Source: an uncultured Methylococcaceae bacterium (GTDB taxonomy: Bacteria > Pseudomonadota > Gammaproteobacteria > Methylococcales > Methylomonadaceae). Taken from it: DNA of 46,074 nt. The stretch lies in assembly GCA_903945605.1 (NCBI GenBank), contig CAJAWH010000049.1, positions 1-46,074 of the forward strand, in the 5' to 3' direction. Position numbers and translations under genes: made by a program. Below the pieces are notes generated by a model, which saw nothing but the letters and a program-made list of their open reading frames with translations, did not search any database and had not been told where the DNA came from. This document shows positions 15,041 through 29,149 of this stretch, in pieces; the stretch's first letter is position 1, and the number at the start of each line of letters is the position of its first letter.

Positions 15041-15056
15041 TGTCGGCTTTGCTACA
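15041..15056. promoter_or_regulatory. NifA upstream activator site 1 (rnf)
   Basis: This is a perfect TGT-N10-ACA palindrome (TGTCGGCTTTGCTACA), extended on both sides to AAATTTGT…ACAAAATTT. It lies about 110 bp upstream of the rnf -24 element, a normal distance for NifA enhancer sites. Confidence 0.75.
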
Positions 15057-15081
15057 AAATTTTTCTTCGCTTTACCCCCCC

Positions 15082-15097
15082 TGTCAGATTCAGCACA
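15082..15097. promoter_or_regulatory. NifA upstream activator site 2 (rnf)
   Basis: This is a second perfect TGT-N10-ACA match (TGTCAGATTCAGCACA). Its centre is 41 bp, about four helical turns, from the first, so both would face the same side of the DNA. It lies about 69 bp upstream of the -24 element. Confidence 0.75.
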
Positions 15098-15150
15098 ACC
15101 CCATGCACGGTAAGCTTAAGCCAGCCGTGCCTTGGCGCATATCTGCCACT

Positions 15151-15166
15151 TGGCATAGTTACTGCT
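15151..15166 (+). promoter_or_regulatory. sigma-54 (-24/-12) promoter of the rnf operon
   Basis: TGGCATAGTTACTGCT matches TGGCAYRNNNNYTGCW at every specified position, with GG and GC 10 bp apart. The predicted start of transcription is near 15177, about 29 nt ahead of the rnfA GTG. Confidence 0.85.
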
Positions 15167-20973: not shown

Positions 20974-21234
20974 ATGCAAATCACCGCATCACAACTTCAG
21001 TCCAAGCACAAAGCGCTCATCGATGCATTAAAGCGAGGGGAAACTGTTGAAATCACTTATCACGGACAAACACTTGGGGTTGTCCACCCTGCCCGTCCCA
21101 GCATCAATCCGCAACTACAAGAAGCGGCAATGAATGAGTTTTTCGGAATGCACCGCTCGGCTGGTAGGGCTGATGTGGAGGGTGAGTTACGCACTATCCG
21201 CAAAGGCCGTCGGGGTGCGCTAGGTGATCTTTGA
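20974..21234 (+). CDS. Phd/YefM-family antitoxin
   Basis: This is an 86-aa protein starting MQITASQLQSKHKALIDALK, followed by ETVEITYHGQTLGVVHPARP. That is the N-terminal DNA-binding fold of Phd/YefM antitoxins. The C-terminal half is basic and probably neutralises the toxin. It overlaps the downstream toxin gene by 11 bp, the usual antitoxin-first order, and would repress its own promoter. Clear promoter hexamers were not identified. Confidence 0.8.
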   Translation: MQITASQLQSKHKALIDALKRGETVEITYHGQTLGVVHPARPSINPQLQEAAMNEFFGMHRSAGRADVEGELRTIRKGRRGALGDL

Positions 21235-21610
21235 CACCAATATTTTGATTTACGCGGATAGGGGTGTTTTATCCGCCAAGGAATTGATTTTAAATACTCA
21301 GCATCGGTCAATTTCTGCGGTCACATACATGGAATATGTCCCTTTTTGCCGTAACAAAAAAGAATTGGCTATTTTTGAAAAGATGCTGAAAGCCTTGCAG
21401 TTCACCATTCATGACATAGACAATGGGATTTCTTGTCATGCCCGCCAATTAGTGCGGCAGTTTGCGCTTAGCCATAGTATGGAAATGGGTGATGCGTTAA
21501 TTGCAGCCACGGCTATGGCACATACTGAAAGCTTATGTACTGGCAACATCAAGCACTTTTCTCAAATTAATGGCTTGTTGCTGGACTATTATCAGCCTGA
21601 TAACACCTAA
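21224..21610 (+). CDS. PIN-domain (VapC-type) ribonuclease toxin
   Basis: This is a 128-aa PIN-domain protein. Acidic motifs are MIFDTNILIYADRG (Asp4), the mid-protein VTYMEYVPF (Glu) and SMEMGDALIAATAMA near residue 88-102, consistent with a Mg-dependent RNase of the VapC type. It starts at a GTG that overlaps the antitoxin. A Phd-type antitoxin with a PIN toxin is a known pairing. The substrate is unknown (tRNA or rRNA in studied VapCs). Confidence 0.83.
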   Translation: MIFDTNILIYADRGVLSAKELILNTQHRSISAVTYMEYVPFCRNKKELAIFEKMLKALQFTIHDIDNGISCHARQLVRQFALSHSMEMGDALIAATAMAHTESLCTGNIKHFSQINGLLLDYYQPDNT

Positions 21611-21645: not shown

Positions 21646-22047
21646 TCAATAGCTGCCCACGCCCGCCATAAACTCGCTGACCCAATCAGCAACGCGCGGC
21701 AAACAGCGGCTTAGCGCGGCGTTTTTTTCAGGAATGGCAAAATAATCCGGTTCGTGCAAATAAGGATTGTCCATTCTGCCGACATCTTGGGCATCGTGGC
21801 TTAAATCCACTATGCGCCCACCGATGTGGTTGTATTGGTGCTGATAATGTCCGCGGATATAGCCGCCAAACACTTGGTTCATGAACAAACTACCAAATTT
21901 GCACGCGCCGGACAAATCATCAGGCCGCATAATGCCCCGTTCGGCAGCTTGTTCGCACCATTTGCCGTAAACAAACACTTTGCTCTGGGCAAAGCGTTCG
22001 TAAGAATAGGCGAGCCGCGCTTCCCGCTCCAGCATCCAATCGGTCAT
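21646..22047 (-). CDS. small protein with transglutaminase-like Cys-His-Asp pattern
   Basis: This is a 133-aa soluble protein, last of the six-gene minus-strand operon, with its ATG overlapping the SagB-type gene stop by 4 bp. Cys49 (SGACKFGSLF), His70 (HYQHQYNHIGG) and Asp81 (GRIVDLSHD) are spaced like the Cys-His-Asp triad of small papain/transglutaminase-fold proteins such as the YunG group. That match is by eye and uncertain. There is no signal peptide. A truncated copy of its 3' end lies at 20850-20951. The function in a nitrogen-fixation context is unknown. Confidence 0.6.
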   Translation of the reverse strand: MTDWMLEREARLAYSYERFAQSKVFVYGKWCEQAAERGIMRPDDLSGACKFGSLFMNQVFGGYIRGHYQHQYNHIGGRIVDLSHDAQDVGRMDNPYLHEPDYFAIPEKNAALSRCLPRVADWVSEFMAGVGSY

Positions 22048-23651
22048 GACAGACTGTCCTGCAAATGGCTATAGGGCGGCAAAGTCTGCAAGCGGCTATC
22101 TTCGCGGGGCTTGCCGATGGTGAAATGATACAAGCTTTGCAGTTTATCATCGTTAATGCCCAAAATCTCATGGACGCTGTCATCGAAATAACAGCCAATA
22201 CCTGTACCACGCACCCCAGCCGCCTCCGCTTCCAAATACAGCACTTGCCCAATCAGGCCACATTCCCAAAATAACCGCCGATACTGCCAAGGGGCGTTGT
22301 TGATCGTGTCGGCAAATTCTGCCACCATGGCCAGACTGAAAGCACTGTCACTGGCAATAGGTTGGTGGCAAGACAAGGTTTTGGCGGTTTGTTTCAGGTC
22401 ACCGGAGTATAAATGATAAAACGGCAAGCTATCATGCTGCCTGTGCCAGTCAAATAGCGACAATGTTGCGTCCTGCAAAACCGTTAAGCTAGCTTCATGC
22501 CTAGCCAAGGCATACAAGCCTGAAGCCAAACCTTCTACCCGGTGTACGAAAACAAACAAATGCACTTTCGGTTGCGATTGCCAAAAACTGAAAGCGGCGG
22601 TGTCCGGCATCACTGCACTGAGTATCCGGTAAAAATCGGCGGCTGGAAGTGCTGCCATTTTGCCATCAAACTGTTGTGCGCTCCGGCGTTGGCGGATAAG
22701 CTGGCTGGCTTGTTTCCCGCAAGCGGTGGGCAATGGCGGTTGTTGCGTCACTTGCCAAGGCAATAGTGCCGTTTCAGGTTTATAGGCCGCCTCGGCAACC
22801 TCATCTATCACCGGCCAATGGTATAAATGGTAGGCTTTTAAACTGTCCGCCACACCAAACCACGTTGCCGAAGGCAATACAGCACATAAGTCCTGATAAG
22901 TTACTGGATCATGTCCGGTGATCTGGATACGGCACAACACATCCGGCGTTTCCTGCTCATTTTTTTTGAAATCACCCGCCCTGTCCAGACCCAACAAACG
23001 GGCAATATCGGCATCAGCGGCTTCCGATAACAGGCTGATAGTCCACCCTAAACAGGCCGCTGCATAGCGTAATGCACCCAAGGCATGACCAATATCATGC
23101 TGGCAATAACGGAATGCCCGCTCGCCATATTTCCACGCTTCCCGCCAATGGATGGATGACAAACCGATAAATAAACCCGAACCAGTGTTAGTTTCAGCAT
23201 CGCCGGTCACTGCAAATTGGCAGCGCTGTTCCAACTGATGGTCGTGGCTGACGTAATGGTAAACACCTGCTGGCAACAGCGTGTTATCGGCAGCCAACAC
23301 ATAAGCTTCAGTGGGATGCAAATTGCCGCTGGATGGGTTGCAGCGCAAAGCCCAACGGCTAGGGCCCAATTGTTTCCATGCCGACAAACCAAAAGCCAGT
23401 TCCAGCAGCAAGCCCACATTAGGCAATGTTAAGGCTTGCACAGTGATATTGTGCGGCTGGTCAAGATCAGCAAAGCGCACTGGCAAATCCCGCCCTGGCC
23501 GTGCTAACGGAAACAGCGCACAACCGGAAAAACGCCGGAACGGGTCGGGTTGGTCTTCCCAATCAATCGTCTCCGGGCCTTTGGCATAGCGCTGTAAGGT
23601 ATGCTTGGTGCGCTGATGGTAATCCAGGATAGTGCGGGTCTGTGGGGTCAT
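22044..23651 (-). CDS. SagB-type dehydrogenase with two nitroreductase-like halves
   Basis: This is a 535-aa protein that begins with the SagB/ThcOx-type signature YHQRTKHTLQRYAKGP, followed by two nitroreductase-fold halves (about 60-270 and 310-535). Typical elements are SSGNLHPTEAYVLA and HDIGHALGALRYAAACLGW in the first half, and IRQRRSAQQFDGK and ECGLIGQVLYLEAEAAGVRGTGIGC (latter read as two adjacent motifs) in the second. Members usually bind FMN and carry out two-electron oxidations; whether both halves bind FMN here is unknown. No azoline-peptide biosynthesis genes are nearby, so a role in peptide modification is not supported. It is 44 bp after the Fe-S protein gene. Confidence 0.8.
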   Translation of the reverse strand: MTPQTRTILDYHQRTKHTLQRYAKGPETIDWEDQPDPFRRFSGCALFPLARPGRDLPVRFADLDQPHNITVQALTLPNVGLLLELAFGLSAWKQLGPSRWALRCNPSSGNLHPTEAYVLAADNTLLPAGVYHYVSHDHQLEQRCQFAVTGDAETNTGSGLFIGLSSIHWREAWKYGERAFRYCQHDIGHALGALRYAAACLGWTISLLSEAADADIARLLGLDRAGDFKKNEQETPDVLCRIQITGHDPVTYQDLCAVLPSATWFGVADSLKAYHLYHWPVIDEVAEAAYKPETALLPWQVTQQPPLPTACGKQASQLIRQRRSAQQFDGKMAALPAADFYRILSAVMPDTAAFSFWQSQPKVHLFVFVHRVEGLASGLYALARHEASLTVLQDATLSLFDWHRQHDSLPFYHLYSGDLKQTAKTLSCHQPIASDSAFSLAMVAEFADTINNAPWQYRRLFWECGLIGQVLYLEAEAAGVRGTGIGCYFDDSVHEILGINDDKLQSLYHFTIGKPREDSRLQTLPPYSHLQDSLS

Positions 23652-23695
23652 GGCTTTGCCGAAAGATGGGGTATTGACGCGTTTACGTTGATAGC

Positions 23696-24943
23696 TTACT
23701 GGGTTGGCAATTGCCGCGCCAGTATGTGCAATGGATGGACAATATCACCCTTGTCGGCATTTAAGAAGGCCGCACAGACAAAATTGCCGCTAACAACCCA
23801 GTCTGCTGCTGCAGTTTTTAGTGCTTGTTGTTTTAAATCGCGCAATTGCCGTGCATTATCGGGGTGGGTCAGCAGATAACTGCCCCCAGCACCACAACAC
23901 AGCGCATTGTCAGGCAGTGCGGTGAGACTGGCTGCCGGTATTTTAGCCAGCAAACCATAAACGGCTTGCTGGTTTTTTAACACATTGCGTTGGCTGCACG
24001 GCTCATGCACGGCAATTTTTTCTGGCAAGGCTTGCAACTGCAAATCCTCAGGCCAATATGCCAACAAAAATTTATGGATGTCATGCAACCGCTCTTTAAA
24101 TAGCTTGCTTGCTTCAGTATTATCGGTTTGGTATTCACTCAACATAGCACCGCAGCCAGTGGCACAATGCACCACAGCATCCACATCCAATGCATTAAAT
24201 ACCGCAATGTTGTTGTCTATCAGCGTAGCGGCACCAAACCCATTGTGTTGGTGTATCGCCCCGCAACACCCTTGCGCGGACGGTATCAGCACATCATAGC
24301 CTATGGCATTAAGCAGGGTAATGGCGGCTTGTAAGGTGTCACGGTCAAAGTGTTCGTTAACACAGCCGGTAAATAAGGCGACTTGTCCGCATTTTTTGCG
24401 GGTACTGGGATAATGTGCCGCCAACGGCTTTAATGCGGGCATACGCAACAATGCCGCCGCTTCGTTCAAATGCAATGCTTGCAATAAGCCGCTGTGACGT
24501 AAAACAGTAACTAGCCCCGATTTTACCAGCAGCGCCAGCCCAGGCAACAAGCGGGTACGCCATGCTTTATTGGCCACTAATGCCAACGCCAATTTCGCTA
24601 GCCTATTGGTTTTTTTTGCCAGTTGGGCTTGGGCTTGGTCGAACAACGTGCCATAGGCCATTTTACTCGGGCAAACCGGCTCACAAGCCCGGCATTGCAA
24701 ACAATTATCCAAATGCAGGCGTTCGTTTTCACTGATGGCTTGGTTTTCAAGCAGGATTTTGCTGAGGGTACGCACCCGGCTACGCGGCGTTTCTGCTTGG
24801 CTTTGGAACAACTGATAAGTGGGGCAACCGCCCACACACAAACCACAGCGCATACAATCGGCGGCTTCGGGCAAATAAGAGCCGGACAAGTGGTTGGCGG
24901 GCGGGCTATCATCCATAAAGCCCATTTCCATGAAGTCGTACAT
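23696..24943 (-). CDS. two-cluster Fe-S oxidoreductase with two CCG domains (GlcF-like)
   Basis: This is a 415-aa protein resembling the glycolate oxidase Fe-S subunit and heterodisulfide-reductase-type proteins. Two ferredoxin motifs are CMRCGLCVGGCPTY (about 30-43) and CLQCRACEPVCPSK (about 83-96). Two cysteine-rich CCG domains follow: FTGCVNEHFDRDTLQ…GCCGAIHQHNG, then HEPCSQRN…CCGAGGSY. No flavoprotein GlcD/GlcE partner is encoded nearby, so glycolate oxidation is unlikely; the SagB-type flavoprotein next door is a possible redox partner (inference). The start is the ATG at 24943, which overlaps the previous stop (TAATG); a longer reading adds 31 residues without support. Confidence 0.83.
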   Translation of the reverse strand: MYDFMEMGFMDDSPPANHLSGSYLPEAADCMRCGLCVGGCPTYQLFQSQAETPRSRVRTLSKILLENQAISENERLHLDNCLQCRACEPVCPSKMAYGTLFDQAQAQLAKKTNRLAKLALALVANKAWRTRLLPGLALLVKSGLVTVLRHSGLLQALHLNEAAALLRMPALKPLAAHYPSTRKKCGQVALFTGCVNEHFDRDTLQAAITLLNAIGYDVLIPSAQGCCGAIHQHNGFGAATLIDNNIAVFNALDVDAVVHCATGCGAMLSEYQTDNTEASKLFKERLHDIHKFLLAYWPEDLQLQALPEKIAVHEPCSQRNVLKNQQAVYGLLAKIPAASLTALPDNALCCGAGGSYLLTHPDNARQLRDLKQQALKTAAADWVVSGNFVCAAFLNADKGDIVHPLHILARQLPTQ

Positions 24944-25386
24944 TAAGACTCCATCATTTGCACATAGGCGCGGCGCAGCAATTCCATTTCGGCGGGTGGC
25001 CTGCCGCGCAATTCGGGTAACGTCCGCAACCGGCAATTCAAGTTTTGCAACAATTGGTGCGGCGGGTCCAGCAACATAAACCGCGCCATATAGACAGTGA
25101 CAATACCACCCGGGGTGTCTATTTGCTGGCTAAACTCCGCTTCGGCTTTCAACAAATCATTATCCAAGCGGTACAATTGATTGACGGTGTTGACCAAAAC
25201 AGACGGATGCAGGCTGACTTTAGTAGGCACGGCTTCTTCCTGTTCCAAGGCACTGGACAGTGCCGGTAATGGCGATGGAAAACATACACTGCCATTGGCT
25301 TGCTGGGCAAACAATACCAAGGCACTGATGTCGCCTTTGTAATAAAGTAGCAAGCGGTGGTTTTGGTCAAAGTTATCGGTTGCCAT
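24943..25386 (-). CDS. unknown protein in the nif-linked accessory operon
   Basis: This is a 147-aa soluble protein that I do not recognise. It has a mixed N-terminus (YYKGDISALVLFAQQ), a middle section VSLHPSVLVNTVNQLYRLDN, and a Leu/Arg-rich C-terminus (LQNLNCRLRTLPELRGRPP). There is no signal peptide, membrane helix or cysteine motif. The start is taken at ATG 25386, overlapping the DUF364-type gene by 14 bp; ATG 25395 is three codons upstream. Tight coupling with Fe-S and metal-binding neighbours suggests a shared task, which is an inference from position only. Confidence 0.65.
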   Translation of the reverse strand: MATDNFDQNHRLLLYYKGDISALVLFAQQANGSVCFPSPLPALSSALEQEEAVPTKVSLHPSVLVNTVNQLYRLDNDLLKAEAEFSQQIDTPGGIVTVYMARFMLLDPPHQLLQNLNCRLRTLPELRGRPPAEMELLRRAYVQMMES

Positions 25387-26353
25387 GCTGGTCATCCCAC
25401 AAGGTTTTGTAACTGCTGTCCAAGCGCGACAAGCGGCTATTGCAGGCTTCCAATAATGGATAAGCAGGGAAGCGGCTGCTATTGCCCGCGCTATACCAGC
25501 TTTCCATCTCGGCGGTAATGCCTTGTTTGTCGGCGGCGCATTCGGCAATCTGTTGTTTTAGCCAGGCCATGCTGTGGCTGGGGGTCAATTCGGCGACACG
25601 GTAACGCACACCTTCCGCAAAAATACGCACCCCACCGCCCTGTGCGGCGGTATGGTACAAAGCGTTGCCATCAACCACTTGCACCCCTGCCAGATAATCA
25701 ATGCCAAACTCATGCAGTTGCGGCAACCATGGCACGGTCGGCCCCATCAACACCGTTTTGGCATTGCCGGACAATTCCGCCAAACGCGGAAAAGTTTTGT
25801 TGGGGATGGAGCTGGCAGTCAAAAAAACCCAGTCGGCCTTGGGTAACAAAAACTCGGCGGCGGCATCAGACACATCACCCATTTGGGGTTGCCGTTCCAA
25901 CACGGTCAATTGCATAAGGTCTTGATAACGCTCAATGCCGGGATAATGACCGATCACCACCACGTTTTTGCCTTGGATGAGCGGCAGAAAATATTCAAAA
26001 ACAGTCAAGTTAGGCTGCTCAGGAAGGCTGGGCAATAACAAAGATTCCGGCAAAGCGCGGCTGTTCAGGCAACAATTGATGGCAGCCATAGCCACCGTAG
26101 CCTTGTAGGGTTCCCAATCCAAAATCCACGCCGCCAAATCGGCAACTGGTTTGCCCGTCAACATGCCAGACCACGGCAAGGTGCGGGTGGCAATAGTCGG
26201 ACTCATTGCCAAACCGATTGTGCCTTGGTTATTGCCTTGTGACGGGTTGTCTTGGCACAACGTCCAAACCAAGCCAATCATAACGCGCTGGATCAGGTTT
26301 TGGCTGCTACAGGAATCCAGCAACAGTTCGTACAGGCGGTTAGGGGCATACAT
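25373..26353 (-). CDS. DUF4213/DUF364 (putative heavy-metal chelation) protein
   Basis: This is a 326-aa protein. The N-terminal third (DUF4213, enolase-N-like) includes LTGKPVADLAAWILDWEP and the phrase VAMAAINCCLNSR. The C-terminal DUF364 domain opens with VVVIGHYPGIERYQDL (about 133-148) and contains QMGDVSDAAAEFLLPKADWV and the TASSIPNKT loop, typical of this Rossmann-like family. The family is annotated as putatively binding metals and is often found near metal or molybdate genes and nitrogenase clusters. No catalytic activity is established. It is preceded by the SIR2-like gene (16 bp gap). Confidence 0.82.
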   Translation of the reverse strand: MYAPNRLYELLLDSCSSQNLIQRVMIGLVWTLCQDNPSQGNNQGTIGLAMSPTIATRTLPWSGMLTGKPVADLAAWILDWEPYKATVAMAAINCCLNSRALPESLLLPSLPEQPNLTVFEYFLPLIQGKNVVVIGHYPGIERYQDLMQLTVLERQPQMGDVSDAAAEFLLPKADWVFLTASSIPNKTFPRLAELSGNAKTVLMGPTVPWLPQLHEFGIDYLAGVQVVDGNALYHTAAQGGGVRIFAEGVRYRVAELTPSHSMAWLKQQIAECAADKQGITAEMESWYSAGNSSRFPAYPLLEACNSRLSRLDSSYKTLWDDQHGNR

Positions 26354-26369
26354 GCTGATTCGCCCTAAC

Positions 26370-27233
26370 TCAAGCAGTCAGCTTTTGCTCACCGGCAAAA
26401 CCCACCACTTCCAACCAGTCCGCCACATCGGCATCGACAATTTCCAGGCCGATTTTTTTACAATAACGTATTTCCTTGTCCGTTGGGTTTTTAATTAATG
26501 CCCAGCCTTTAGGCTCGCCGCCATCACGGATAATATCCGCCATAACCATACGCTCCGAATCACGGTTCAGGCGCAAACCTAAAAACAGATACTGCTTGCC
26601 CTTACGGTAATTTTTTAGATAATCGGGAATGGCAAACCCGCCCATCAATTCGGTAATGTAATCGACATAATCGGCATCAGAAGCGACAAAATTGGCATCC
26701 GGCTGTGGCGTACCCATGGGTTTGAACAACACCGGATAACGAGGGTCGATTTGTTCTTGGGGTATCTCAAAATAACTGCTGCCATCAAAGTGATAAATGC
26801 GGAAGCGGAATTGACTGGCGGTGATGCGTGCCAAACCAACTATTAAAGTGTGTTCTTCATCGGCATAACTGGCTTGCAGTTGGGTGTCGCGGTTCACGTC
26901 AATGACATAGGCGGGCTTCCAATGTGCCAGCCAATCGTGAATGGCGGCCCGTGTCCATTCGGTTTCCCCATAAGTTTTGCTGAGGAATTGGCTAAGAAAA
27001 TTACGTCCGCGCTTCAGCTCCAAATTCATCGCCGCACGGGGGAACTCATACATCAGCTTAGGCGCCATCGGCCTGCCGTCATTCATAGCTAAAATCAAGC
27101 TGTCGCTGGTGGCGGGCATGGCTTGTCCAGTCGCCTTGTTGCGGGCATCAAACAATACCCCTGGGCCAAGGTAAGGGACAACTTTGTTGTCGTAAAGGCC
27201 TTCTAGTATTTGAGGAAATGGCGCAGATGACAT
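26370..27233 (-). CDS. SIR2-like domain protein, first gene of the accessory operon
   Basis: This is a 287-aa protein with a SIR2-like NAD-binding fold. Visible elements are the glycine-rich VVPYLGPGVLFD near residue 18-29, PAYVIDVNRDTQLQ (about 108-121, equivalent to the NYD loop), VLFKPMGTPQP (equivalent to KLHG) and QYLFLGLRLNRDSERMV near 213-229. The canonical deacetylase active site and zinc-binding Cys set are missing, so it is not a typical sirtuin. NADase or signalling activity is possible but unproven. The ATG has a strong AAGGAG site. It lies directly behind a sigma-54 promoter and NifA site, so it is the leading gene of a nif-regulated operon. Confidence 0.75.
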   Translation of the reverse strand: MSSAPFPQILEGLYDNKVVPYLGPGVLFDARNKATGQAMPATSDSLILAMNDGRPMAPKLMYEFPRAAMNLELKRGRNFLSQFLSKTYGETEWTRAAIHDWLAHWKPAYVIDVNRDTQLQASYADEEHTLIVGLARITASQFRFRIYHFDGSSYFEIPQEQIDPRYPVLFKPMGTPQPDANFVASDADYVDYITELMGGFAIPDYLKNYRKGKQYLFLGLRLNRDSERMVMADIIRDGGEPKGWALIKNPTDKEIRYCKKIGLEIVDADVADWLEVVGFAGEQKLTA

Positions 27234-27269
27234 GAAAAACTCCTTGAGGGCTTAAATAATAAGCTTTTA

Positions 27270-27285
27270 AGCAAGAAACAATCCA
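27270..27285 (-). promoter_or_regulatory. candidate sigma-54 (-24/-12) promoter of the accessory operon
   Basis: On the minus strand TGGATTGTTTCTTGCT has the invariant GG and GC at the right spacing and a perfect -12 half (TTGCT). The -24 half has two differences (TGGAT instead of TGGCA). The predicted transcript start is near 27259, about 26 nt ahead of the SIR2-like ATG. The adjacent perfect NifA site raises confidence. Confidence 0.65.
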
Positions 27286-27351
27286 ATGTTAAATGGCTTT
27301 ATATGATGATGATTTATATGATATTACTGCATTAAAATAGAGGCAGGGCAT

Positions 27352-27367
27352 TGTCGGATTTGCCACA
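27352..27367. promoter_or_regulatory. NifA upstream activator site (accessory operon)
   Basis: TGTCGGATTTGCCACA is a perfect TGT-N10-ACA match. Its centre is about 76 bp upstream of the -24 element and about 100 bp from the predicted transcript start. AT-rich DNA separates it from the promoter, which would allow looping. Its inner bases (CGGNTTTGC) resemble those of rnf site 1. Confidence 0.7.
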
Positions 27368-27617: not shown

Positions 27618-28631
27618 ATGCTGACCCAAATTGAGCTACAAAATTTTGGCCCTTTGCAGTCAGTGCAATGGCATAACTTACAGACCATCAATCTTGTTAT
27701 CGGTAAAAATAGCAGCGGTAAAACGTTTCTGCTCAAGGCAATTTACAGCGCATTGCGTACCCTGGAAGAGTATCAGCGAGGCAATGAGAATCGTTCTGCC
27801 GCCGAAATTTTAGCTACTAAATTGTATTGGACTTTTCAGGCGGACAAAATTGGCGATTTAGTCACCAAGGGCGGCGAGGGTTCGTTATCTTATAAAATGA
27901 CCATGGATACTCGCCAGTTCCAATACAGCTTTGGCAAGGACACCACCAAAAATATTGCTATGTTGGAAAACCATATATTACCCCGCCAAAGCAATTCCAT
28001 TTTTTTACCACCCAAAGAAGTCTTGTCACTCCAGCATATTATCTTGGCATCACGAGAGAACGATACAGTTTTTGGTTTTGATGACACCTATTACGATCTT
28101 GCCAAAGCCTTGCGGAATGCCACAACCTTGGGCAAAAATTACGCCGAATTTGCCCAATCCCGTAAAAGTTTGGAATCCATTTTGTCCGGAAAAATTGAAT
28201 ATGACGAAGCTGTGCGCCGTTGGCAATTTAAAAAAGGTAACCAAAAATTCAATATTGGCGTGACCGCTGAAGGGATAAAAAAAATTGCCATCTTGGATAC
28301 CTTATTGGGTAACCGCTATTTGTCGCGCGACTCCCTGATTTTTATTGATGAACCCGAATCAGCTTTGCATCCAGCGGCTATTTCTAAATTGCTTGACATC
28401 ATCGCCATGCTTGCTAGCAACGGGATTCAGTTTTTTATTGCCAGCCATTCCTACTTCGTCATAAAAAAACTGTATCTGATCGCGCAACAACAAAGTTTGT
28501 CGATACCGGTCATTTCAGCCATAAACGATCAGTGGCAACAAGCCGACTTAAAAGAAGGCATGCCCGATAACCCAATCATTGATGAATCCATCAGGCTTTA
28601 TAAAGAAGAAGTTGAGCAGGTGTTGGCATGA
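27618..28631 (+). CDS. ABC/OLD-type ATPase of a two-gene module
   Basis: This is a 337-aa ATPase of the AAA_15/ABC-like class. Walker A is GKNSSGKT (29-36), Walker B is LIFIDEPESALHP with Asp244/Glu245, and the switch His is near 277 (IASHSYFVIKKL). EGIKKIAILDTLLGN stands where the ABC signature is expected. Between the two halves is a helical insert of about 150 residues. Such small ATPases commonly pair with an effector in phage-defence modules. No TOPRIM domain is fused. It overlaps the next gene by 4 bp (ATGA). By eye the pair is more AT-rich than its neighbours, consistent with transfer. Confidence 0.8.
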   Translation: MLTQIELQNFGPLQSVQWHNLQTINLVIGKNSSGKTFLLKAIYSALRTLEEYQRGNENRSAAEILATKLYWTFQADKIGDLVTKGGEGSLSYKMTMDTRQFQYSFGKDTTKNIAMLENHILPRQSNSIFLPPKEVLSLQHIILASRENDTVFGFDDTYYDLAKALRNATTLGKNYAEFAQSRKSLESILSGKIEYDEAVRRWQFKKGNQKFNIGVTAEGIKKIAILDTLLGNRYLSRDSLIFIDEPESALHPAAISKLLDIIAMLASNGIQFFIASHSYFVIKKLYLIAQQQSLSIPVISAINDQWQQADLKEGMPDNPIIDESIRLYKEEVEQVLA

Positions 28632-29149
28632 ATGAAGCCATTATTGAGTCGGGCATGAAATTTGGCCCCTATGATGCAGGCTTATGTTTTCATATAGAAA
28701 AAAGCAAGCTTTATGGGCAATTAGGGCAAGGGGTACAAATAGCAGAATTTGCCGTTTTGCGTACATCTATGGACACATCTGCAGTGTGGCTGGTCGAAGC
28801 CAAGTCAAGCAGCCCGAGACCGGGAAACCCGGAAGACTTTGATGAGTTTATTAAAGAAATTGTTGAAAAAATGCGGAACACCCTACTCATATTGCTAGCG
28901 GCCTTACTGGAACGCCACCCGGACACAACCGAGTTATCTGGCCAATTTAAGGCACTTGATTTAAAAGTGACGGCATTTAAGTTTGTATTGGTCATCAATG
29001 GTCATCAAGATGAGTGGTTACCTCCGCTACAAGATGCCTTGAACAAAGCACTGGCACCATTAATTAAGACACTGGTATTAACACCTTTAGCAGTCGCAGT
29101 GATTAATGAGAAGATTGCGGTAAAGCTCAAACTTATAACAGATGCATAG
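28628..29149 (+). CDS. predicted PD-(D/E)XK-fold partner of the ATPase
   Basis: This is a 173-aa protein not recognised by name. Residues 37-59 contain an acidic residue (IAEFAVL, Glu40), then a beta-strand with VWLVEAKSSSP in which Glu57-Ala-Lys59 fits the E-x-K core of PD-(D/E)XK nucleases. The rest is alternating helices and strands (FKFVLVINGHQDEWLP). Translation is coupled to the ATPase gene. A nuclease effector gated by the ATPase is the simplest reading, but catalytic activity is unproven. Confidence 0.6.
   Translation: MNEAIIESGMKFGPYDAGLCFHIEKSKLYGQLGQGVQIAEFAVLRTSMDTSAVWLVEAKSSSPRPGNPEDFDEFIKEIVEKMRNTLLILLAALLERHPDTTELSGQFKALDLKVTAFKFVLVINGHQDEWLPPLQDALNKALAPLIKTLVLTPLAVAVINEKIAVKLKLITDA

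Follow-up and report, generated by a model that had tools for sequence, protein, structure and literature searches.

What is the task of a six-gene operon that lies beside the regulatory genes nifA and nifL of a methanotroph? The question is raised by contig CAJAWH010000049.1 (assembly GCA_903945605.1) of an uncultured Methylococcaceae bacterium, whose 46,074 nucleotides are the window analysed here. The genes, called g1 to g6 counting from the promoter (Table 1), code for a SIR2-like protein, a DUF4213/DUF364 protein, a small protein, a GlcF-like iron-sulfur protein, a SagB-type nitroreductase and a second small protein. The answer that we prefer, with a probability of roughly 0.6, is that this is an accessory operon under NifA/sigma-54 control with which gammaproteobacterial methanotrophs would maintain the MoFe protein of their Mo-nitrogenase. 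The operon may be such a nitrogenase-care unit because g3 is related to NafT and g1 occurs almost only in nitrogen-fixing relatives. The tie of g1 and g3 to nitrogenase rests on data, whereas the repair role is what we infer from them.

The strongest clue is g3, which the initial annotation had left as unknown. A profile of 62 g3 sequences was compared with the PDB sequences by hmmsearch (E up to 5), and the sole matches were the NafT chains 8eno_E and 9cjf_E (E 4.8e-10), aligned from position 10 to 145 of the 147 of g3 with residues 3-131 of NafT. The reverse search with NafT of Azotobacter vinelandii recovers g3 (E 2e-8, 34% identity). Judged by these comparisons, g3 is a divergent NafT homologue. 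In the available passages of the structural papers, NafT (Avin_01560) is described as bound to the MoFe protein of a nifV deletion strain, which is homocitrate-deficient, at a site that partly overlaps that of the Fe protein (PMC9968304), and as captured also on MoFe protein inactivated by alkaline turnover, with cofactor density (PMC11612016). As to the function of NafT, which they describe as unknown, the same passages consider a part in stabilisation, repair or degradation, or in cofactor insertion (PMC9968304, PMC11612016).

We aligned 73 NafT sequences, 62 from methanotrophs and 11 others (Methylococcus sp. EFPC2 included). All of them have Ser14 and Arg124, and in the docking helix (117-131) Leu122, Leu123 and Tyr127 are almost invariant. 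We take the NafT-contacting residues of NifD to lie within a set of partner motifs; these, with residue numbers from the paper, are kept in 34 of 34 NifD sequences. Outside the family, NafT belongs to a nifN/nifXassoc/fdxB-type (nifENX-type) operon in six of nine loci (L186, L187, L189, L190, L191 and L194), a set that omits the marginal case G343. In two other gammaproteobacteria it stands directly before modA (L188:8398-9751 and L192:9585-12872), in L192 together with modB and a ModC-like gene, some kilobases past the nif tail; modA was also seen near the module in two relatives. NafU was also considered as a relative of the module and dropped, since the part of the source available describes it as an inner-membrane protein.

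The second clue is co-occurrence with nifD. In the family set of 151 genomes the nifD model matched 84, of which 78 were over the cut-off and six (G004, G023, G043, G088, G093 and G121) were NifE-type or fragment matches. We found g1 in 84 of the 151 genomes, 82 of them matching nifD (77 over the cut-off), g2 in 80 (71 matching nifD), g3 in 72 (68), g5 in 85 (73) and g6 in 26 (25), counts that leave g4 aside and are uncorrected for shared descent. The gene set is therefore not found mostly in non-diazotrophs, which the initial annotation had named as the outcome that would speak against it. The exceptions for g1 are G025 (fragments, one with four stops) and G128, which lack nifD, and G036 and G088, which match nifD and lack g1; the 12 genomes with g5 and no nifD hold some full-length copies and some fragments. 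In G023 and G093 g1 is present only as fragments and nifD only below the cut-off, and G043 has a shortened g1 with a stop; these patterns fit a joint decay of g1 and nifD.

The class set gave the same pairing of g1 with nifD. The g1 profile matched 27 of 369 genomes, 19 strongly and 8 weakly, and nifD was checked in 80 genomes, all 27 of these plus 53 of the 342 g1-negative ones. All g1-positive genomes match nifD (25 over the cut-off; G390 is fragmented) except G229, which is 81% complete, making 26 of 27; among the 53 g1-negative genomes one was over the cut-off (G218) and one was marginal (G256). A. vinelandii NafT matched 12 of the 369 genomes, 11 of them g1-positive, and the twelfth, G343, is a marginal match (E 9e-4) with no nifD match.

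The third clue is the promoter. Both sites that had been proposed upstream of g1, the TGT-N10-ACA and the -24/-12 element, are exact in the sequence. A single match of either kind in the window is not telling, because TGT-N10-ACA occurs 8 times across its 46 kb and many other sites equal the score of this -24/-12 element. Conservation is more informative. Among 63 distinct g1 upstream regions (blastp E up to 1e-60, at least 260 nt upstream, the window's own included), which are related sequences and hence non-independent, 56 had a NifA upstream activator site (UAS) at -200 to -110 of the g1 start, 58 had a sigma-54-like site at -75 to -40, and 56 had the two together; the regions without both are L025, L029, L064, L067, L069, L070 and L075. 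Both sites occurred in 0.07% of mononucleotide shuffles of the same regions, and before 51 of 644 other open reading frames (ORFs) of the same loci, an impure control that contains nif genes and g1. Given the conservation of both sites in 56 of 63 regions, NifA/sigma-54 control of the operon, as read from sequence, is therefore well supported. Induction of nif genes has been seen in RNA-seq of a methanotroph, according to the accessible text of PMC7154130. Upstream of rnfA, at 15041-15166 on the plus strand, there are two TGT-N10-ACA sites (15041 and 15082) and TGGCATAGTTACTGCT at 15151, likely a second NifA promoter.

Do the six genes belong together? The neighbourhood scan with the g3 profile found 102 relatives, the best 80 of which were used in the counts. 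By their titles they are Methylococcales, except 8 titled uncultured proteobacterium and L107, titled uncultured Geobacteraceae; the scan cannot show absence elsewhere, because its search patterns came from methanotroph sequences. L107 has the methanotroph g1-g3-g4 set and is probably misbinned. Across the 80 loci, g4 follows g3 directly in 62, g2 precedes g3 directly in 50, a nif ferredoxin tail of the nifENX type lies upstream of g3 in 40, and g1 stands upstream in the same orientation in 26; in 16 loci g1 and nifH are divergently oriented. A nif gene was present in 59 of the loci, and a nif gene, the ferredoxin tail or g1 in 72, the remaining 8 (L100, L101, L133, L134, L147, L148, L161 and L173) being pieces of 3.3-11.1 kb. 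In L050, for example, nifE, nifN, nifX, a NifX-associated gene, ferredoxin III and a 2Fe-2S ferredoxin stand upstream of g3. Elsewhere g2-g3-g4 are found at the end of the nifENX operon or behind SIR2. From these patterns, therefore, the window operon is, by gene order, a layered assembly of three parts: g1, the set g2-g3-g4 known from the nifEN tail, and g5-g6. Two further proteins (tail165 and tail124, L050:8373-9244), to which neither Pfam nor NCBIfam gave a match, are repeatedly encoded in the nifENX tail between the 2Fe-2S ferredoxin and DUF364, also in other gammaproteobacteria. Several close relatives carry a Ras/Roc-like small GTPase between g1 and g2 (L032:8963-9550, L036:6120-6728, L097, L103, L109 and L116), which the window does not.

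The outer layer is g5 and g6. At the threshold used for g1, the pair of UAS and -24/-12 sites was found upstream of g5 in none of 20 relatives (16 nifD-matching and 4 not; one of the regions is only 240 nt long) and upstream of g6 in none of 20, and a stricter threshold for g5 was likewise negative; single UAS-like sites were present in 4 of 20 g5 regions and in 0 of 20 g6 regions. The proposal that g5 and g6 have NifA promoters of their own is disfavoured by these numbers. Moreover, g5 follows g4 in only one of 80 other loci (L096, from a genome without g6), and 68 of the 80 extend at least 3.2 kb downstream of g3. The reading of the six genes as one unit is thus not supported, and g5 and g6 probably joined the operon in this lineage as a late addition, to judge from gene order and the absent promoter pairs. 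A tie of both genes to nitrogen fixation is nevertheless conceivable. Homologues of g5, 44-51% identical, occur in three other gammaproteobacteria (EFPC2, L188 and L192) on contigs that also bear nif genes. The g6 gene, which tracks nifD in 25 of 26 genomes, is beside the module in three relatives, before g1 in L105 (6975-7394) and after g2 in L151 (11712-12104) and L155 (5449-5790), and in 8 of the 26 genomes with g6, counting that of the window, no more than about 5 kb separate it from g2. Precursor-peptide or partner maturation families for SagB were matched by none of the other five operon genes, in a search that did not include short ORFs.

Regarding g1, another explanation is that it could be a nif-specific sirtuin that deacylates nitrogenase or NifA in an NAD-dependent way. 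GAGxS, TxNYD and HG are catalytic sirtuin motifs. Among 57 nif-linked g1 homologues we found GAGxS in none, TxNYD in none and xHG in one; the three motifs occur in 7, 11 and 10, respectively, of 14 ordinary SIR2_2 proteins encoded by related genomes of the same bacterial family (18 were collected, 4 of them out of frame and dropped; the xHG patterns of the two sets differ slightly). Only L053 has the His of the xHG place among 32 aligned rows. The homologues are of two types, one with DxNRD, KPMG and SDADYVDYITELMGGF (gamma) and one with WYD, xPxG and SDSDYVEVLTEIDIQTPIP. The window's g1 is of the gamma type, which retains in the alignment the Asn of TxNYD, and because of this some nucleotide binding or chemistry by g1 is possible. 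We predict from these motifs that g1 is a degenerate SIR2, without most sirtuin motifs, and not an active sirtuin. The published guess of a deacetylase, made for Zymomonas mobilis ZMO1821, an upregulated SIR2 family protein of the nif cluster, is therefore doubtful, although the accessible text of the same paper reports acetylation of NifA, NifH and NifK (PMC8600466). Together with the SIR2_2 match and the retained Asn, these are the points in favour of deacylation, which in the face of the motif counts we consider very improbable. Searches for a solved-structure relative of g1 gave only a chance-level match (Tad2, E 0.3) or nothing, and a PHROGs search gave no match for g1, g3 or g6.

The family of g1 is already in print as nif-linked. 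In the available parts of the sources, Rcc03262 of Rhodobacter capsulatus, a SIR2 family protein, was detected in the wild type and not found in a nifA mutant (PMC6925177), PST_1325 of Pseudomonas stutzeri is listed beside nifH, and a Rhodovulum nif cluster also includes a SIR2 family protein. In our searches, a g1 homologue comes after nifA-nifB-nifZ-nifT on Rhizobium etli p42d, and another is near nifT on the nif plasmid of Methylococcus sp. EFPC2. Thus the initial annotation's undescribed nif-regulon module stands as to its nif tie, and it is not wholly undescribed, since nif-linked SIR2 proteins and NafT have been published. In open PubMed Central we found no paper that joins SIR2, NafT, DUF364 and GlcF, and none on DUF364 with nitrogen fixation.

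The other two core genes may contribute small-molecule and redox chemistry. The g2 protein is homologous to the DUF364 protein Dhaf4260 (PDB 3L5O; E 1.1e-27), and the text available of PMC2954201 ascribes to DUF364 proteins a deep pocket whose residues are conserved and links them, by genome context, with the transport of Mo, W, V and Fe. We mapped the pocket residues by hand from the 3L5O alignment (Thr133 was not mapped) in 54 nif-linked sequences, two of which are short forms without the C-terminal extension. All 54 keep Gly37, Asn83, Gly129, Glu148 and Thr182; at Thr174, 48 have Thr and 6 have Ser, while Gly39 is replaced by Ala in 49, Arg42 by Pro in 53 and Asp180 by Asn in 54; the window's g2 has A49, P52 and N185 at these three places. 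In g4, 16 of 18 cysteines are conserved in 69-70 of 70 sequences. These conserved cysteines, together with two 4Fe-4S motifs and two CCG stretches, allow another explanation, in which g4, with g5, would feed electrons to nitrogenase or counter oxidative stress, and NafT and SIR2 would be mere neighbours. The rnf genes adjoining the operon and the SagB-type flavoenzyme g5 fit this explanation. However, g4 is directly behind the NafT gene in most of the loci, and g5 and g6 are found elsewhere without a NifA-type promoter, so that we regard it as improbable.

We therefore return to care of the MoFe protein, for which the following course can be proposed. Under nitrogen fixation NifA at its upstream site would activate sigma-54 polymerase at the -24/-12 element, and the genes would be co-transcribed. 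The g3 protein, if it behaves as A. vinelandii NafT, would dock over the Fe-protein docking face of MoFe protein that lacks homocitrate or is inactivated by turnover, and by homology such docking would stop turnover of the damaged protein and steady its cofactor. With its conserved pocket g2, and with its Fe-S and CCG domains g4, could furnish electrons and a small molecule or chelator for restoring or recycling the cofactor. In this process g1 would not deacetylate; its probable part is to bind a nucleotide or protein. The genes g5 and g6 would have been added in this lineage. The four core genes would accordingly act together in sheltering or repairing the MoFe protein rather than assembling it. 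The protection of nitrogenase suggested initially comes near the mark, and it now rests on the NafT identity of g3. A bolder version, which we put forward only tentatively, is a dedicated repair system in which NafT flags homocitrate-less MoFe protein with a SIR2-fold pseudoenzyme as partner, the DUF364 enzyme and the HdrD-like protein rebuild or re-seat FeMo-cofactor in place, and the SIR2-NafT operon of methanotrophs brings to light a partnership whose genes other bacteria keep dispersed across the nif cluster.

The closest competitor is assembly. The module would then aid the synthesis or insertion of FeMo-cofactor (supply of Mo and homocitrate, transfer from NifEN to NifDK) and NafT would recognise immature MoFe protein. 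The nifENX ferredoxin tail before g3 in half of the methanotroph loci and NafT before modA in two genomes agree with this, and the accessible text of the NafT paper also allows a role in biogenesis or cofactor insertion (PMC9968304). However, the turnover-inactivated MoFe protein on which NafT was also captured showed cofactor density (PMC11612016, in the part available), and 16 of the 84 nifD-matching family genomes have no g3 match. We judge assembly possible, though clearly less likely than care of the finished protein.

Several observations weigh against the care reading itself. The same 16 genomes without g3, and 13 of the 84 without a g2 match, mean that the module is dispensable, and the shared descent left in the co-occurrence counts weakens them. 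The genes are also separable, since 13 loci have g1-g3-g4 without g2, and in 18 of 80 loci g4 is not directly behind g3 (3 of these at a contig end). In all 62 methanotroph sequences His9 of NafT is replaced by Tyr, His11 by Gly and Arg16 by Leu, versus His9 in 11, His11 in 4 and Arg16 in 10 of the 11 others; therefore the methanotroph proteins lack one salt bridge and the His cluster seen in the solved complex. His95 sits in an insertion unique to the Azotobacter sequence, and the cluster, suspected of metal binding, is therefore not general. Outside the order, the best g4 homologue of 8 NafT-positive class genomes is 42% identical and not near NafT; L188, with a weak 23%-identical g4 match near NafT, is the sole such case. 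Three of the nine non-family NafT loci are outside a nifENX-type operon, and the L193 locus has no nif gene within its 19.5 kb stretch. The Asn kept by gamma-type g1 belongs here as well.

In the window, the minus-strand operon with tight joints is as the initial annotation described it. All six ORFs are open, and from g1 to g6 the joints are a 16-bp gap, a 14-bp overlap, a 1-bp overlap (TAATG), a 44-bp gap and a 4-bp overlap; the gene starts were re-read from the sequence, and those of g3 (25386) and g4 (24943) are downstream of the mechanical ORF-list starts. Its labels were borne out for g1 (SIR2_2, 38.4 bits versus a cut-off of 24.5), g2 (DUF4213 and DUF364, 60.6 and 130 bits respectively) and g5 (SagB, TIGR03605, 102.9 bits, cut-off 78.4). 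The g4 protein resembles GlcF and is not a member of the NCBIfam GlcF equivalog (200.4 bits versus a cut-off of 333), and the transglutaminase-like label of g6 was not recovered, the best matches being YunG (E 0.0029, 18.2 bits, cut-off 27) and DUF4325 (14 bits, cut-off 23).

Table 1. Genes and promoter sites of the operon, in window coordinates
Feature	Position	Strand	Basis
g1, nif-linked SIR2-like protein, 287 amino acids	26370-27233	minus	SIR2_2 match
g2, DUF4213/DUF364 protein, nif-linked subfamily, 326 amino acids	25373-26353	minus	DUF4213 and DUF364 matches
g3, NafT homologue, 147 amino acids	24943-25386	minus	profile match to PDB NafT chains
g4, GlcF/HdrD-like iron-sulfur protein, 415 amino acids	23696-24943	minus	two 4Fe-4S motifs, two cysteine-rich CCG stretches
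g5, SagB-type tandem nitroreductase, 535 amino acids, probable late addition to the operon	22044-23651	minus	
g6, small protein, 133 amino acids, probable late addition to the operon	21646-22047	minus	
NifA upstream activator site TGT-N10-ACA, TGTGGCAAATCCGACA	27352-27367	minus	exact match
sigma-54 -24/-12 element, TGGATTGTTTCTTGCT, GG-N10-GC	27270-27285	minus	exact match

To the left of the operon lie nifA, nifL and rnfA, with ORFs labelled rnfB to rnfH from their position, and two small ORFs between rnfH and g6 (20974-21610, plus strand) presumably form a pair of antitoxin and PIN-type toxin. The nifD of the source genome is on contig C133 and a NifE-type match on C51. To the right there is a divergent pair and then mobB-moeA. 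The pair (27618-29149, plus strand), an AAA ATPase and a small partner, matches PADLOC HEC-02A (544 bits) and HEC-02B (206.9 bits) and is a candidate defence pair. SIR2-like proteins occur in defence, and with this pair divergently upstream g1 might be taken for the SIR2 defence protein of an anti-phage island. However, g1 is matched by no PADLOC model, goes together with nifD across genomes and stands behind a NifA-type promoter that is conserved, so that this explanation is hardly credible.

The NafT structures raise the question whether cells repair turnover-damaged nitrogenase, and the operon names candidate NafT partners, the SIR2-like, DUF364 and GlcF-like proteins. The results also argue against deacetylation as the function of nif-linked SIR2 proteins, methanotroph NafT shows that the suspected His cluster of Azotobacter NafT is not general, and nitrogenase engineering is offered accessory genes that might lengthen the life of the enzyme.

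Compared with known systems, g3 shares with A. vinelandii NafT (8ENO, 9CJF) a near-full-length match, a nif-operon location, the docking-helix residues and Ser14. It differs by an identity of 34% and the replaced His9, His11 and Arg16, and the window operon additionally has the SIR2-like and GlcF-like genes. The SIR2 protein of R. etli p42d matches g1 with 27% identity over 91% of g1; Rcc03262, ZMO1821, PST_1325 and the Rhodovulum protein share the nif location and are likened to g1 by description, not by sequence. Rcc03262 is NifA-dependent, and the g1 promoter is NifA-type by sequence. From the nif-linked SIR2 family proteins g1 differs in being of the gamma type (DxNRD, KPMG) and upstream of NafT. 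Homology to Dhaf4260 (3L5O) and the five invariant pocket residues link g2 to the DUF364 family, whereas Ala, Pro and Asn usually or always stand for Gly39, Arg42 and Asp180 and the window's g2 has about 70 extra C-terminal residues. Finally, g4 is like GlcF and the heterodisulfide-reductase-type Fe-S proteins in its 4Fe-4S motifs and two CCG stretches, but it falls below the GlcF cut-off, has no FAD-oxidase subunit among the six genes and has NafT as its operon partner.

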